Virus record (IMG/VR): IMGVR_UViG_3300017971_000586
Span: 1-33,223 of that record
DNA: 33,223 nucleotides
Source: a virus
Reading direction: 5' to 3' (one strand)
The notes under the pieces are model-generated. The model was not told where the DNA came from, did no database searches, and saw only the letters and a list, made by a program, of their open reading frames with translations. The translations under genes were made by a program, and so were the position numbers. Numbering within the stretch: the stretch's first letter is position 1; every line of letters starts with the position of its first letter. This document shows, piece by piece, positions 1,405 through 33,223 of the stretch.

Positions 1405-1941
1405 TCACCCTCCCTGCGCTTTCACTCTTCTGTCCCGTTGCATTACAAGTACCAAACCACCAGCCAAGCGGCTGGCAATACGTGCGTCCAGCCTGCCAGA
1501 CACTTCGGACAGCGACAGGTTAGACGTGACCAGCGTAGGCCGCCGCCACTGCTCACGCTCAGTCAGCAGGTATATCAGTGACTGCTGGCCGAAGTCCGTC
1601 AGCTTCTCCGCGCCTAGATCGTCCAGCACGAACAGCCCCGGGAACCGCGCCGCCTGTTTCAGAGCCGGTACTGCGCCGCCCATGCCGTAGGCCCCAACCC
1701 AGGCGGCAACGTCCAGCAGGAACGCAGTCGAAAGCTCAAAGCGTGCCCCGTCGTGCTCGCGCTGGTACTCGCGCACCACGGCCCAGGCGCAGTGAGTTTT
1801 CCCGCTGCCGGGTCTGCCGGTGATCGTGACCAGCCCCTCGGGCTGCTCTAGCCACTGCCGCAGCACGTCCCGCGTTTTGGCCGCGAACTGGTCCAGCGTG
1901 GCCTCGCTGTAGAGTGTCGGCACGTCGCCCCGTCGTATCAC
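1405..1941 (-). CDS. DnaC-like helicase loader (AAA+ ATPase)
   Basis: 178 residues. Walker A GRPGSGKTH lies at about residues 42-50 and Walker B LFVLDDLGAEK at about 103-113. A sensor-like TLVTSNLS and an arginine-finger region RLDARIASRL follow, all in the order seen in DnaC/IstB-type loaders. These proteins open the host DnaB ring and place it on the phage origin. The protein is shorter than E. coli DnaC (about 245 residues) because the N-terminal helicase-binding region is small. It starts in an ATGA overlap with the replication initiator upstream, the usual initiator-loader pair, comparable to lambda O and P in layout. With no phage helicase, primase or polymerase visible, replication probably uses the host replisome. 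Confidence 0.9.
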   Translation of the reverse strand: MIRRGDVPTLYSEATLDQFAAKTRDVLRQWLEQPEGLVTITGRPGSGKTHCAWAVVREYQREHDGARFELSTAFLLDVAAWVGAYGMGGAVPALKQAARFPGLFVLDDLGAEKLTDFGQQSLIYLLTEREQWRRPTLVTSNLSLSEVSGRLDARIASRLAGGLVLVMQRDRRVKAQGG

Positions 1942-2750
1942 TCGTCCACCTGTATCCCGATCCCGTCGTACTTATCCGCTGGTTCCTGTAATGACTTCGG
2001 CTTGTCGCGCCGCTGCTGCGGCCTGTCCATCTGCCCGGTGAGCGTATCCCACTTCTCGCGCAGTTTGCGCGGGCTTCGGATATTCGGCCTCCAGAATGGC
2101 TCGTCATTGGCCCAGGCGAAAACCTCGCGGATCTGCTCCGCTGTGAACCCGTCGCGCTCCCGCATAAGTCGGATAACGTCGGCCCACGCCCGCACGTCTA
2201 CCCTGCGCAGCGGTCGGCTGGAAGTCCGGCGAAGCCGGTCGCGCATCCAGCGGGCAAGCTCCACGTCCTGCTCGGTTGGCCGCCCATTCGCGGGGGCGTC
2301 AGGTGCTTCCGCTTCCGCTTCCGCTTCCGCTTCCGCTTCCGTTCCCGCATCATTGCGGGACAGTTGGGGCCTATTTGGGGCCTGTTTGGGGCCTACTTGG
2401 GGCCTGTTTGGGGAAGCGTGCTCCTTCCACGTGCGAAGGCTTGAATGCACTTTTCCGCAGCCATAGATCAGAATTCGGCCGTTTTCGTCCTCGCCAATTA
2501 GCGGCGCGTCAGTGCATGAATCCCGAAGCTGTGCGAGCGCCTTCGCCACGCTGCGCGGATCTTTTCGGAGCACTCCGGCAACACTTCGCAAACTGTAGCG
2601 AGATGGTAGCCTATCTGTCCTGCATCTGACGGCCAAGCACCACAGCCCCAGGTAGACGTTCTGCGCGTATTCCGGCAGGTCTATTAGCCTCGGATCGTCA
2701 AGCCAGAAGTCTACCTCGACCTTGGCGTATAGCGGGTCGCCGCGAGCCAT
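1938..2750 (-). CDS. Phage replication initiator (winged-helix, DnaD-like C-terminus)
   Basis: 270 residues from ATG at 2750 (MARGDPLYAK). An in-frame GTG at 2813 would start inside a predicted leader hairpin, so I prefer 2750. The N-terminal third (DPRLIDLPEYAQNVYLGL, then RYSLRSVAGVLRKDPRSVAKAL) looks like the winged-helix domain of phage replisome organisers. The middle is a low-complexity linker of alternating Glu-Ala, preceded by a Pro/Gln-rich stretch coded by 11-bp iterons. The C-terminal part, ending FWRPNIRSPRKLREKWDTL, matches the helix-rich DnaD-type domain with its usual NI-sP-xKL-xxkWd signature. It likely binds the iterons and recruits the loader coded next. Known families suggest this role; binding is inferred. 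Confidence 0.85.
   Translation of the reverse strand: MARGDPLYAKVEVDFWLDDPRLIDLPEYAQNVYLGLWCLAVRCRTDRLPSRYSLRSVAGVLRKDPRSVAKALAQLRDSCTDAPLIGEDENGRILIYGCGKVHSSLRTWKEHASPNRPQVGPKQAPNRPQLSRNDAGTEAEAEAEAEAEAPDAPANGRPTEQDVELARWMRDRLRRTSSRPLRRVDVRAWADVIRLMRERDGFTAEQIREVFAWANDEPFWRPNIRSPRKLREKWDTLTGQMDRPQQRRDKPKSLQEPADKYDGIGIQVDE
2305..2340 (-). repeat. Hexanucleotide repeat coding (Glu-Ala)n linker
   Basis: Six perfect copies of GCTTCC (plus strand) code alternating Glu-Ala in the initiator linker. Length is a multiple of three, so copy-number change would keep the reading frame. It separates the winged-helix part from the C-terminal domain. Confidence 0.9.
2364..2413. repeat. 11-bp iterons, candidate replication origin
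   Basis: Four full copies and one partial copy of TTGGGGCCT plus two variable bases (AT, GT, AC, GT) follow each other with a strict 11-bp period, at 2364, 2375, 2386, 2397 and 2408. The period is not a multiple of three, so the protein repeats only every 33 bp; the regularity is at the DNA level. Eleven bases is about one helical turn, so a bound protein would sit on one face. Iterons inside the initiator gene recall lambda ori within gene O. Confidence 0.7.
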
Positions 2751-2768
2751 AGGCTTCGCCTCGAAAGC

Positions 2769-2832
2769 GACTCCCGGCCCGGGGCGGCGGCCTACGTGGT
2801 AGCGGGGGCGCACCGCTGGCCGGCCGGGAGTC
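2769..2832 (-). other. Long stem-loop in the leader of the replication initiator
   Basis: Perfect 11-bp inverted repeat: GACTCCCGGCC at 2769-2779 and GGCCGGGAGTC at 2822-2832, with a 42-base GC-rich loop. It lies between the promoter at 2874-2903 and the chosen start at 2750, so it would form in the 5' leader RNA. It has no T-tract, so it is not a standard terminator. Confidence 0.55.
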
Positions 2833-2968: not shown

Positions 2969-3229
2969 CTAGTCGGAAACGACCGTCCTCACCTTAACGG
3001 TTTCCTCGCGGATACTCACGGCGTTCACGCCCTGCGGCGCACGAATCGGAAAGTATCTTTTCCCTGCCTCGCCGTTCTTCTCCGCGAACTTCTCCCAGCC
3101 GGTCAGGCCGGGAAGCTGAAGCTGCGGCACGTATGCCTCGCGTTCGCTGCCCTCGGCTTTAACGACTTCGCACAAATACCAGCTTGACAGCGTGACGTTC
3201 CGCTTTTTCCCTTCCCCGTTCTCGCTCAT
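2969..3229 (-). CDS. Small protein of the recombination unit, unknown function
   Basis: 86 residues, starting in an ATGA overlap with the annealing protein upstream and ending 35 bp before the terminator stem. The N-terminus is charged (MSENGEGKKRN). The rest looks beta-rich (VTLSSWYLCEVVKAEG, KRYFPIRAPQGVNAVSIREETVKV). The tight coupling to a nuclease and an annealing protein suggests a partner in recombination or a single-strand DNA-binding role. I see no OB-fold signature clear enough to claim that. Real gene, function unknown. Confidence 0.75.
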   Translation of the reverse strand: MSENGEGKKRNVTLSSWYLCEVVKAEGSEREAYVPQLQLPGLTGWEKFAEKNGEAGKRYFPIRAPQGVNAVSIREETVKVRTVVSD

Positions 3230-4332
3230 GCTGCGTCCCCTTGTTCAAGGGCGGCCAGTAGCCGCCTGCCTTCTTCTTCCGTCAGGTCGTTCAGCGCCGT
3301 TCCGTCCGGCGCTATCATCTGCTCGGCCATTACGCCAAGTGCAAAGTGACTCGTCAGCGCGTGGTCCTCCAGCCAGCGGTTGACGGCGTTCATGGTTTCG
3401 ATACTGACCCGATCCCGGCCGGACGTGTCCGCGTGCTCGCCAGCGCCCGCGAACAGGTCGGGCGGGGATTCCTCCCCGCCCTGGTCTTTCTTTTTTCCTT
3501 TCTTCTGCTCGCGTGCAACCCTCGCGGGTGGGAACAGATCCGACTTCTTCGCGTCCCCTTCCTTCAAGCCGGAATATGCCAGCCGCAGGTCCGCCAGTTC
3601 CTCTGCCGAAAGGTCCGTCAGCTTGTGGCCTACGCGCCGCTCGATATCCTCGGCCGTGACGCCCACGCCTGCGAACGCCGCCAGCAGGTCGGTTTTCTGC
3701 TGGTCGAACGGCACGCCCTGCGGCCCCTTGCGCACCGTCTGCCGGATAGCTGCAATACAGCGCTCCTTCACGTCCCTGGGCAGCAAGGAAAAAATACACT
3801 CGCGCTGGAGTATCGCGCCGTAGCGCATCGTCAACTCGCGCAAGGTCCGATCATCGTCGGCGTTCTCGTACTTGACCGGACGCCAGCCGCCACTTTGACG
3901 GTAGATCATCTTGGCGAACTCGTCCTCACGGCTGACCATCGTATTGGACTGAAGATCCCAGGCAAAGGCCCGAATCTTCCGGTGCGTCGGCGTGTCCCCC
4001 ACAACCTGCACGCCTGTCCTGACGTTTCCCCATGCCTCGGCCATGATCCTGGCAAGGTGGACGTTCCCGCCTTCAACCTTCTGGCCGCCTCGCGGATAGG
4101 AGTACATGGCCCCCTCCGCGAACTTGTAGGACTGGCACCGCGCCAGCATGGCTGACAGACACTGGTCCTCGTTCCTTGGGAATCGGTGGGCAAGGATACA
4201 TTGAGCCTCGATTTCCCGCGCCGTTTCCATCTGAGCACGGGCCACGGACACGTCGTGTATCTCGCCGTCCTTGGTCACGTTGCCAATGGCGAACGTGTCC
4301 CCTTGCTTGGGCACAATCGCGCCTTCGCTCAC
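3226..4332 (-). CDS. Probable single-strand annealing recombinase
   Basis: 368 residues from GTG at 4332, which overlaps the nuclease stop as GTGA; a longer frame to 4455 would run back through the nuclease gene. The core (AHRFPRNEDQCLSAM, SYKFAEGAMYSYPRGG, then GGNVHLARIMAEAWGN, FAWDLQSNT and MRYGAILQRECIFSLLP) has the pattern of a widespread phage family found next to RecB/Cas4-type nucleases. From that context I read it as the annealing protein of a two-component recombination system like RecE/RecT or lambda Red. The C-terminal third is charged (KKSDLFPPARVAREQKKGKKKD) and probably flexible, then a short helical end. The fold assignment is family memory plus context, not proven by motifs. 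Confidence 0.65.
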   Translation of the reverse strand: MSEGAIVPKQGDTFAIGNVTKDGEIHDVSVARAQMETAREIEAQCILAHRFPRNEDQCLSAMLARCQSYKFAEGAMYSYPRGGQKVEGGNVHLARIMAEAWGNVRTGVQVVGDTPTHRKIRAFAWDLQSNTMVSREDEFAKMIYRQSGGWRPVKYENADDDRTLRELTMRYGAILQRECIFSLLPRDVKERCIAAIRQTVRKGPQGVPFDQQKTDLLAAFAGVGVTAEDIERRVGHKLTDLSAEELADLRLAYSGLKEGDAKKSDLFPPARVAREQKKGKKKDQGGEESPPDLFAGAGEHADTSGRDRVSIETMNAVNRWLEDHALTSHFALGVMAEQMIAPDGTALNDLTEEEGRRLLAALEQGDAA

Positions 4333-5582
4333 TGGTAGTCCCTCCGATCCAGAGTTTGCTTCCACGTATCGGCGGGCAGGTGATCGGACCAGCAGAGCGG
4401 GAAGAACTCGCACGGCCTGCCGAATTTGCCCTCGCACTGGCCCGGGCAGCCCCACTTCGGCCAGTCCCCGGCCTGCTCAAACCAGAGCAACAGCCGCACC
4501 GCACGAGCAAGCGCCTCATACACGGCGCGGAACGTCGGCGGGTTGTCAGCCGGTATCTCCCTCGCGTGCTTCGCCACTGTATCGCGCCCCATGTTCTTGG
4601 TCAGCGGATACAGCGCCAGCGCATTCACTGGCTGGTCCACGTGCAGGGCCGTCCAGACGTAGCGATAAAGCCCAAGCTGGAACCAGTAGCCCAGCCATCG
4701 CGCCCACTCGTCCGAAATCGGGCTTGCCGTGGTTTTCAGGTCAGCGATTTTCACGCCACGGTCCAGGCGAAGCACCAAGTCCAGGCGGCCAGAAGCGTGG
4801 AAGCCCTGGAACTCCTGGGCAACGTCGCCGCTGTCCGGGTCCACAAGCTCGCAGGAAAGCCGCGACTCACAGGCTACTACCTGCTCCACCGGATAGCGCC
4901 GCTCGTGCCAGACGCTGACGCCATTCCTGGCAATCGTCGGCAGCTTGCGCTGTTCCTCGCTGGTGACTGATACCTCCCGCGTGCTCGTGATCCACTCGCC
5001 TGTCGGCAGTCGTTCCTCGCGCTCTACGCGTTCGGTCTGCACGATCTGCTCCACGTCGGCCGCTGCCGCCTCGGCCAATGCCTCGCCTGCCGGTGCATCG
5101 TCGCGCAGGTACGGCTCAAAGGCCCGCGAGTGTACGACAGTGCCGAAAGGAAAATACACCGGCAGGCGTTTGACTCGCCAGCCTGCAAGGTAGAGCGCCG
5201 CCTTGCGCGGGCACTCCAGCACATTGTGCAGCCTGAACCCGGAGCCGCCCGTGTTGCTGACGTAGAACGGGCGCGGCAGCTTCAGCCCAGACAGGTCGCC
5301 AATGATATGGCGCTCCGGCTCCGTCCTGCTGCCCGTCAGCACGCCTGGACGGGCGAGCGTGACTGCCGCCACGTGCTCGGAGCCGTACAGGTCGGCCACG
5401 GAGCACCCCAGCAGGTCCGCAACCTCTGCGGGCCGCTCGCGGCCCCTGGGGCTGGCCCTGCCATTCTCCCACCTGACAACCGTCTGGCGTGTAACCCCAA
5501 GAGCACCGGCAAGCGCTCCCTGGGAAAACCCAGCGGCTTCCCTGGCCGCCCGCAAGCCGGGCAGCCCCAATTCCTTGTTCAT
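4329..5582 (-). CDS. XRE helix-turn-helix fused to Cas4/RecB-like Fe-S nuclease
   Basis: 417 residues; ATG at 5582 follows GGGGAGGAAACGCT. Residues 8-66 are a complete XRE DNA-binding domain (FSQGALAGALGVTRQTVVRWENG, with helices around 20-40). After a linker of about 40 residues comes a PD-(D/E)XK nuclease: a first cysteine in LECPRKAA (C124), His151 in FGTVVHSRAF, Asp268 in GRLDLV, the DLK of VKIADLKTT (D281, K283) and Q302-Y306 in FQLGLYRY. Four C-terminal cysteines (C379, C383, C391, C397) complete an iron-sulfur site as in Cas4 and AddB. It is probably the end-resecting exonuclease that works with the annealing protein coded next. The HTH domain may let it repress its own promoter, which carries a palindrome over the -10. 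Confidence 0.85.
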   Translation of the reverse strand: MNKELGLPGLRAAREAAGFSQGALAGALGVTRQTVVRWENGRASPRGRERPAEVADLLGCSVADLYGSEHVAAVTLARPGVLTGSRTEPERHIIGDLSGLKLPRPFYVSNTGGSGFRLHNVLECPRKAALYLAGWRVKRLPVYFPFGTVVHSRAFEPYLRDDAPAGEALAEAAAADVEQIVQTERVEREERLPTGEWITSTREVSVTSEEQRKLPTIARNGVSVWHERRYPVEQVVACESRLSCELVDPDSGDVAQEFQGFHASGRLDLVLRLDRGVKIADLKTTASPISDEWARWLGYWFQLGLYRYVWTALHVDQPVNALALYPLTKNMGRDTVAKHAREIPADNPPTFRAVYEALARAVRLLLWFEQAGDWPKWGCPGQCEGKFGRPCEFFPLCWSDHLPADTWKQTLDRRDYQ

Positions 5583-5608
5583 AGCGTTTCCTCCCCGGGT
5601 AGCCCCAA

Positions 5609-5628
5609 TGATACAACGTGTTACATCA
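5609..5628. promoter_or_regulatory. Candidate operator of the XRE-nuclease gene
   Basis: Minus-strand TGATGTAACACGTTGTATCA is an imperfect palindrome of the form TGATnnAACnnGTTnnATCA. It overlaps the -10 of the promoter at 5625-5653, so a bound protein would block transcription. The XRE domain coded directly downstream is the obvious candidate. Confidence 0.6.
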
Positions 5629-5653
5629 TAAGCGCCACGTGTACCATTGGCAA
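5625..5653 (-). promoter_or_regulatory. Sigma70 promoter of the recombination unit
   Basis: Minus strand TTGCCA (5648-5653) and TATGAT (5625-5630) are 17 bases apart, each matching consensus at 5 of 6 positions. The likely start of transcription is near 5618, about 35 bases before the ATG at 5582. Confidence 0.8.
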
Positions 5654-30532: not shown

Positions 30533-30844
30533 TCAGACCGGCCACCACGGGGCGGCCAGACGGCCCGAAACGCTGCACCTGCGTTCCTGCCCCTTGTGTA
30601 CGTGCCCCTTGGCCGCCAGGGACGGCAGACGCCGCCCTGTCACGTAGCGGTCCATTCCGTGCCTGCGGGCCAATTCCAGGGCCGTCAGGCCCGGTGTGCG
30701 CCTCAGAGCGGCCAGACAGGCCGCCTCTTGCCCAGCCACCTGTCCAGAGGCCAGGGCCTCGGCTGCCGCCTGTTTGGACGCCTGGGCACCGTCACGCCGG
30801 GCGAGCGGCGGGTGCTGCCAGTCAATCTCTCGCTGGCCGGTCAC
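30533..30844 (-). CDS. Winged-helix DNA-binding protein
   Basis: 103 residues from GTG at 30844 (GTGA overlap). The N-terminal part (REIDWQHPPLARRDGAQASK) leads into GQEAACLAALRRTPGLTALE, LARRHGMDRYVTGRRLPSL and AAKGHVHKGQERRCSVSGRL. This is a helix-turn-helix with a wing, like many phage proteins of the form QRxxLxALxxxPGLTxxELA. It would bind DNA, perhaps as a regulator of early genes. It is the last gene before the strong promoter at 30477-30505, and may regulate it. Confidence 0.72.
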   Translation of the reverse strand: MTGQREIDWQHPPLARRDGAQASKQAAAEALASGQVAGQEAACLAALRRTPGLTALELARRHGMDRYVTGRRLPSLAAKGHVHKGQERRCSVSGRLAAPWWPV

Positions 30845-31110
30845 TGGTCCGACTCCCTGACCGTGGACCCGCACTCGCTGCACGTGGCAAAGAACTGGCC
30901 CGGCTCGCTGCTCGTGCGCTCGGTCCAGCAGTGTCCGCACGAGCTACACCGGACTGCCATAACGCTGCACGTCCCGCGCTTGCCGTCGCGCCTGTCCTTG
31001 CGCCGGGCCAAGGACAGCTCCAGCAGGCCGACCATGCCCAGCACCACGCCAAGGCCCAGGCCCAGCGCGAACTGCACCGCGCCTATCCACCGGAACCATT
31101 CAGCCAGCAT
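30841..31110 (-). CDS. Membrane protein with C-terminal zinc ribbon
   Basis: 89 residues from ATG at 31110 after a GGGGGGGG ribosome site. One long membrane segment (IGAVQFALGLGLGVVLGMVGLLELSL, residues about 9-34), a basic stretch (ARRKDRRDGKRG), then CSSCGHCWTE and CSECGSTV, a four-Cys zinc ribbon. The positive stretch after the membrane helix puts the ribbon in the cytoplasm. Role unknown, perhaps an early membrane-linked adaptor. Confidence 0.78.
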   Translation of the reverse strand: MLAEWFRWIGAVQFALGLGLGVVLGMVGLLELSLARRKDRRDGKRGTCSVMAVRCSSCGHCWTERTSSEPGQFFATCSECGSTVRESDQ

Positions 31111-32921: not shown

Positions 32922-33223
32922 CGATGTTCTCCTGTAGGCTGGCGAGGGTGGTCTGCTGCGTTGCCATCGTTATCGCAACAACACAATCGCCGGTCCGGTC
33001 AAGTGCGACCGCTTGTTTGGATTGGACATCGAAGGATGCGTTGCTGCTGTAGATGGTTGCTATTGCGTTGTCACACAACACGGCGCTGGCGTTGCCCCGC
33101 AACGTGGCGCGGGCGTTGTCCCGCAACACGGCGCTGGCGTTGTCCCACAACTCGGCGCGGGCGTTGCCCCACAACACGGCGCTGGCGTTGTCACACAACA
33201 CGGCGCGGGCGTTGTCCCACAAC
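32908..33223 (-). CDS. Octapeptide-repeat protein, C-terminal part (cut by window end)
   Basis: The frame enters the window at 33223 without a start and ends at TGA 32908. It shows at least six octapeptides (LWDNARAV, LCDNASAV, LWGNARAE, LWDNASAV, LRDNARAT, LRGNASAV), then DNAIATIYSSNASFDVQ, a short beta tail DRTGDCVVAITMATQQTT and LASLQENIDGPD. It shares YSSNASFDVQ and the neighbouring DNA with the gene at 1-479, so the two pieces complete each other. The end is a coupling cassette for the gene at 32921. Repeat number here is larger than in the left copy. Likely an elongated beta-solenoid; role unknown. Confidence 0.78.
   Translation of the reverse strand, partial: LWDNARAVLCDNASAVLWGNARAELWDNASAVLRDNARATLRGNASAVLCDNAIATIYSSNASFDVQSKQAVALDRTGDCVVAITMATQQTTLASLQENIDGPD
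32925..32950 (-). repeat. Coupling cassette, copy 3
   Basis: A 26-bp repeat that codes the LASLQEN tail of the octapeptide gene and supplies CAGGAG for the ATG at 32921. Nearly identical to 739-764. Confidence 0.85.
33065..33223 (-). repeat. 24-bp tandem repeats coding octapeptides (right copy)
   Basis: More than six 24-bp units of the same family as 46-146, cut by the window end. Bases 33020-33094 equal bases 1-75. After that the unit order and the variable codons differ from the left copy. Confidence 0.9.

Follow-up and report, generated by a model that had tools for sequence, protein, structure and literature searches.

A predicted XRE-nuclease fusion at the head of a phage recombination operon and its possible autoregulation

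Why would the nuclease of a phage recombination module carry the helix-turn-helix (HTH) domain of a repressor? The question is raised by a locus in an uncultivated virus record of 33,223 bases (hereafter the window, meaning the whole stretch of DNA analysed), for which a preliminary description had proposed an XRE domain joined in one frame to a Cas4/RecB-type nuclease. The gene and its two domains are the following:

4329..5582, minus strand: fusion protein of XRE and PD-(D/E)XK (PDDEXK_1, Cas4/RecB-type) domains, 417 amino acids (Pfam)
5382..5555, minus strand: XRE/Cro-CI HTH domain, residues 10-67 (HTH_3, HTH_31 and phage repressor PHROGs 2328, 4, 8 and 3)
4431..5234, minus strand: PDDEXK_1 nuclease domain, residues 117-384 (Pfam and motif inspection)

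The gene, to which no strand had been assigned previously, is a single unbroken frame of 417 codons running on the minus strand from 5582 to 4329, and HTH_3, HTH_31 and PDDEXK_1 all score above their Pfam cut-offs within it, as had been proposed. A strong Shine-Dalgarno sequence, GGGGAGG, lies about 7 nt 5' of the ATG; no clear one precedes the internal GTG codons 62, 71, 81 and 121. The GC3 value stays high across the linker between XRE domain and nuclease (0.79/0.85/0.79), which argues that the junction is coding in the frame of the fusion. Judged by its sequence, the 417-residue frame is unlikely to hide two joined genes. The source is a single metagenomic contig, and the only overlapping public contig found, an 8.4-kb IMG/VR contig (L113, IMGVR_UViG_3300028840_005469), matched over terL and its flanks and not over the fusion gene. 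An assembly or sequencing artefact linking two genes is nevertheless hardly credible in view of the open frame, the one strong ribosome-binding site, the coding-type GC3 of the linker and the lack of any clear internal ribosome-binding site. Over the 3.5 kb compared around terL, the overlapping contig is 100% identical to the window.

Both domains score well above the Pfam cut-offs. HTH_3 matches residues 10-47 (E=2.6e-10, 40.6 bits against a cut-off of 23) and HTH_31 residues 10-64 (E=1.4e-9, 38.5 bits against a cut-off of 27), and phage repressors are the top PHROG matches of the domain. Its HTH sequence, FSQGALAGALGVTRQTVVRWENG, is canonical and no decay was seen in it. The match of PDDEXK_1 (PF12705) to residues 117-384 has an E value of 1.3e-13 and 51.9 bits, for a curated cut-off of 22. 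By inspection we found the motifs G147..H151..E155, G265-R-L-D268, D281-L-K283-T and Q302...Y306, so that the catalytic pattern H/E..D..DxK..QxxxY is present (H151/E155, D268, D281-L-K283, Q302/Y306). The four C-terminal cysteines noticed earlier are C379, C383, C391 and C397, the last two lying just past the end of the HMM match; together with the N-terminal C124 they make five candidate Fe-S cysteines. The Fe-S module of this nuclease family comprises four cysteines, a single N-terminal one and three C-terminal ones; the C-terminal spacing here, C-x3-C-x7-C-x5-C, is unusual. AlphaFold2, run on the single sequence of the fusion protein without homologues, gave a pLDDT of 36.

The genes that follow place the predicted nuclease in a functional context:

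3226..4332, minus strand: RecT-like single-strand annealing protein P0002 (phrog_3657, 1.8e-60), GTG start
2969..3229, minus strand: small ORF of 86 amino acids, no family match
1938..2813, minus strand: O-like replication initiator/DnaD-like protein (phrog_391, 9.3e-27; phrog_2514, 9.2e-26)
1405..1941, minus strand: DnaC-like helicase loader (phrog_50, 3.1e-20; IstB_IS21, 2e-7)

Downstream of the fusion gene the order is thus annealing protein, 86-residue ORF, O-like/DnaD-like gene and DnaC-like gene. The GTG start of the annealing protein gene overlaps the stop codon of the nuclease (GTGA). Ten phage homologues align with P0002 along some 230 residues, and its homologues in several mycobacteriophages are annotated as RecT-like ssDNA binding protein or putative RecT. 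This coupling to a RecT-like gene, with O-like and DnaC-like genes downstream, indicates that the fusion occupies the place of the exonuclease in a standard phage recombination module, and the earlier reading of the locus as a recombination operon is borne out. Modules that combine an exonuclease with an annealing protein and a replication loader are known with YqaJ and DUF3799 nucleases (PMC8093625). As in lambda Red, RecET and the pairs of YqaJ or DUF3799 with RecT, a PD-(D/E)XK nuclease gene is coupled here to an annealing protein and replication genes. Within 2305-2413 the O-like gene also contains a GCTTCC hexamer repeated seven times and a 22-bp repeat, TTGGGGCCTACTTGGGGCCTGT, in about 2.3 copies; by analogy with lambda O, these repeats, notably those at 2364-2413, are possibly origin iterons.

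Two elements were recognized in the 122-bp gap 5' of the fusion gene:

5625..5653, minus strand: sigma-70-like promoter TTGCCA-N17-TATGAT, 10/12 match
5609..5628, minus strand: imperfect palindrome TGATGTAACACGTTGTATCA as candidate operator, overlapping the -10 hexamer and the presumed start point

The promoter is located some 43 bp 5' of the ATG, and its hexamers are near consensus, as described before. In a scan of 2.9 kb it was the one promoter of 10/12 found, against 0.4 expected from shuffles, and it is the sole promoter of this quality found between 5.5 and 25 kb. The palindrome does overlap the -10, a sensible location for an operator, but it is imperfect, pairing at 7/10 positions as a 20-mer and 8/11 as a 22-mer (22 bp), and this lies within chance expectation: mononucleotide shuffling of the 122-bp gap yields an equally good 20-mer in 31% of cases, and palindromes equally good, all lengths considered, occur in 20.7% of dinucleotide shuffles of the gap and in 11.6% of those of the 70-bp promoter stretch. 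The candidate operator is present as a single copy in the window, with no further copy at up to three mismatches. Its pattern, with purine/pyrimidine variants, was found twice in IMG/VR, both times within unrelated coding sequence.

We propose that the predicted PD-(D/E)XK nuclease, with its candidate Fe-S cysteines, would resect DNA ends as the exonuclease partner of the RecT-like annealing protein whose gene comes next, a role suggested by its slot, its motifs and the translational coupling. The XRE domain most likely dimerises, as other such domains do. It may bind the promoter of its own operon across the -10 and, once the protein is sufficient, would then lower transcription of the nuclease, the annealing protein and the replication genes. 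Negative feedback of this kind would limit the amount of a DNA-degrading enzyme while the phage grows lytically, much as in I-TevI autorepression or in fusions of C protein and endonuclease. For this reading as a whole, a predicted exonuclease partner of the annealing protein whose XRE part is predicted to repress the operon, we see somewhat less than an even chance. Autoregulation by the fusion protein is plausible by analogy, and it draws on domain logic and precedent and not on the palindrome, since the pairing of the latter is within chance expectation. Thus, of the suggestion that the operon is controlled by its own nuclease, the part that stands is that the fusion leads the operon; self-control through a palindrome that 12-31% of shuffles equal is plausible only.

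The precedents come from other kinds of nucleases. CR.NsoJS138I is an XRE-type controller fused to a PD-(D/E)XK restriction enzyme, in which the regulator and nuclease functions are both kept (PMC3850674). Such fusions of C protein and restriction endonuclease resemble the protein studied here in combining an XRE-type regulator and a nuclease in one polypeptide, which likely controls its own promoter in those fusions and may do so here; however, CR.NsoJS138I is a Type II restriction enzyme paired with a methyltransferase, whereas our protein has an exonuclease-type domain and an annealing protein beside it. In I-TevI, a homing endonuclease of T4, the DNA-binding part represses the enzyme's own promoter (PMC2988022), but its nuclease is of the GIY-YIG type, it belongs to a homing element and its DNA-binding domain is unrelated. 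With phage Cas4-like pfam12705 nucleases our protein shares the Pfam family, the catalytic motifs, the cysteine cluster and a phage-borne, non-CRISPR setting; the N-terminal XRE domain sets our protein apart from them, and passages on fusions of these nucleases in PMC5704561 name helicases and no HTH domain. By analogy, the fusion would join the ideas of regulator-nuclease and of autorepression inside a recombination module. Should such regulation prove real, the phage would have a recombination exonuclease that adjusts its own dose; the idea of regulator-nuclease fusions, known from restriction and homing enzymes, would then apply to phage recombination modules as well, and would provide a simple self-limiting recombineering operon.

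The lifestyle of the phage bears on what an XRE protein could be doing. The first 146 bases of the contig are 93% identical to bases near its right end, and both ends lie within the same 24-bp tandem repeat (46-146 and 33065-33223); since the ends overlap through this repeat, the contig probably represents an almost closed genome with its break at the repeat. On the minus strand the repeat encodes an eight-residue repeat (DNARAVLW-like). Neither an integrase nor a second XRE protein was detected among the ORFs scanned with Pfam and PHROG (with the 25 commonest of 37 PHROG families listed; a small gene might have escaped notice). Apart from the fusion, a single DNA-binding regulator was seen among these ORFs:

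30536-30940: winged-helix/MarR_2 protein

All genes called in the window are on the minus strand. With integrase and second XRE protein both undetected in the scanned ORFs and the called genes on one strand, there is no sign of a temperate setting with an integrase and a divergent switch of the Cro type, the fusion does not look like a lysogeny repressor, and the lack of a detected integrase and second XRE protein suggests that the phage is probably lytic (virulent). The remark that no separate lysogeny repressor is visible holds at the level of HMM searches, but it is misleading for a nearly closed genome without a detectable integrase: no such repressor is expected, and its absence is no puzzle for the fusion to solve.

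Other roles for the XRE domain have to be weighed against autorepression. Joined in cis to the nuclease, the domain might be a targeting module that guides the exonuclease to phage DNA, at an origin or packaging site, or to a site on host DNA, where resection and annealing would start. The O-like gene, which belongs to this operon, contains possible origin repeats that would offer such a site; the only candidate XRE-type site noticed, however, lies on the promoter and has no other copy in the window at up to three mismatches, its recognition sequence being itself putative, and we regard targeting as rather unlikely. The domain could also be left over from the fusion of an XRE gene to a nuclease gene downstream of it, serving in dimerisation only or in nothing, with the nuclease an ordinary Cas4-like exonuclease. 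A distant relative (L018) does encode a separate XRE-like protein of 75 amino acids (2744-2971), on the same strand and two genes upstream of its pair of nuclease and annealing protein, and this small gene is a possible unfused counterpart; yet the HTH keeps its canonical sequence and strong scores here, and we consider a mere leftover unlikely. The domain might instead act on promoters elsewhere in the phage or in the host, and not on its own. This would fit the only XRE protein detected in a nearly closed genome with all called genes on the minus strand, but the candidate operator occurs just once in the window, which speaks against such a role, and we hold it to be very improbable. A variant of autorepression, in which the exonuclease of a virulent phage is the sole repressor of the recombination-replication operon and is titrated off its operator by DNA ends, so that the output of the operon follows how many free ends there are, seems to us improbable; the earlier proposal that recruitment of the enzyme to DNA ends relieves repression is unsupported by anything in our analysis.

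How unusual the fusion is was assessed in 90 neighbourhoods of the annealing-protein family (10 annotated phages and 80 IMG/VR contigs), whose 118 neighbouring ORFs were scanned singly with Pfam together with the protein from the window, several matches per protein being allowed. PD-(D/E)XK nucleases are the commonest neighbours, the 25 commonest of 53 families being listed (DUF3799, 40; PDDEXK_1, 27, that of the window included; YqaJ, 21). In the same scan HTH_3 was matched by our protein only, and no hidden HTH was found in 18 of the longest neighbouring ORFs (L020, L032, L076 and L085 among them). In contrast to these exonuclease-annealing modules, among whose scanned neighbours none carries HTH_3, the nuclease of the window has this domain in frame, and its sequence is far from all of theirs: hhalign against other nucleases of the slot aligned the DxK/QxxxY motif only and gave no convincing alignment. 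Two high-GC relatives (L016 and L032) have a Cas4-like nuclease without HTH immediately upstream of the annealing protein, with a cysteine spacing of C-x4-C-x5-C where our protein has C-x3-C-x7-C-x5-C. In distant relatives, then, an unfused nuclease holds the slot, by which the fusion is neither refuted nor proven.

Searches for close homologues, whether of the entire fusion or just of its nuclease, returned HTH matches only from INPHARED phages, plasmids and genome_contigs, and nothing from IMG/VR, which was queried with the full-length protein, with fragments covering the core or the motifs, and with an alignment; a search without positive control of 398 genomes of one phylum, reached via L002, was likewise negative. 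One match, MT837270 (29.6%, residues 14-155), was rejected as a homologue of the fusion, being a small HTH protein. By sequence the nuclease is an orphan in the collections searched. Searches of the open-access literature gave no example of a phage recombination operon with an XRE-Cas4 fusion; the architecture, seen once, appears unusual, whereas the slot it occupies is a known one. As a side observation, Dulem virus 31 (PP511318.1, L010) is a circular record of 35.8 kb encoding CI, an annealing protein, an exonuclease and a replisome organizer; its filing under Microviridae looks like a taxonomy error.
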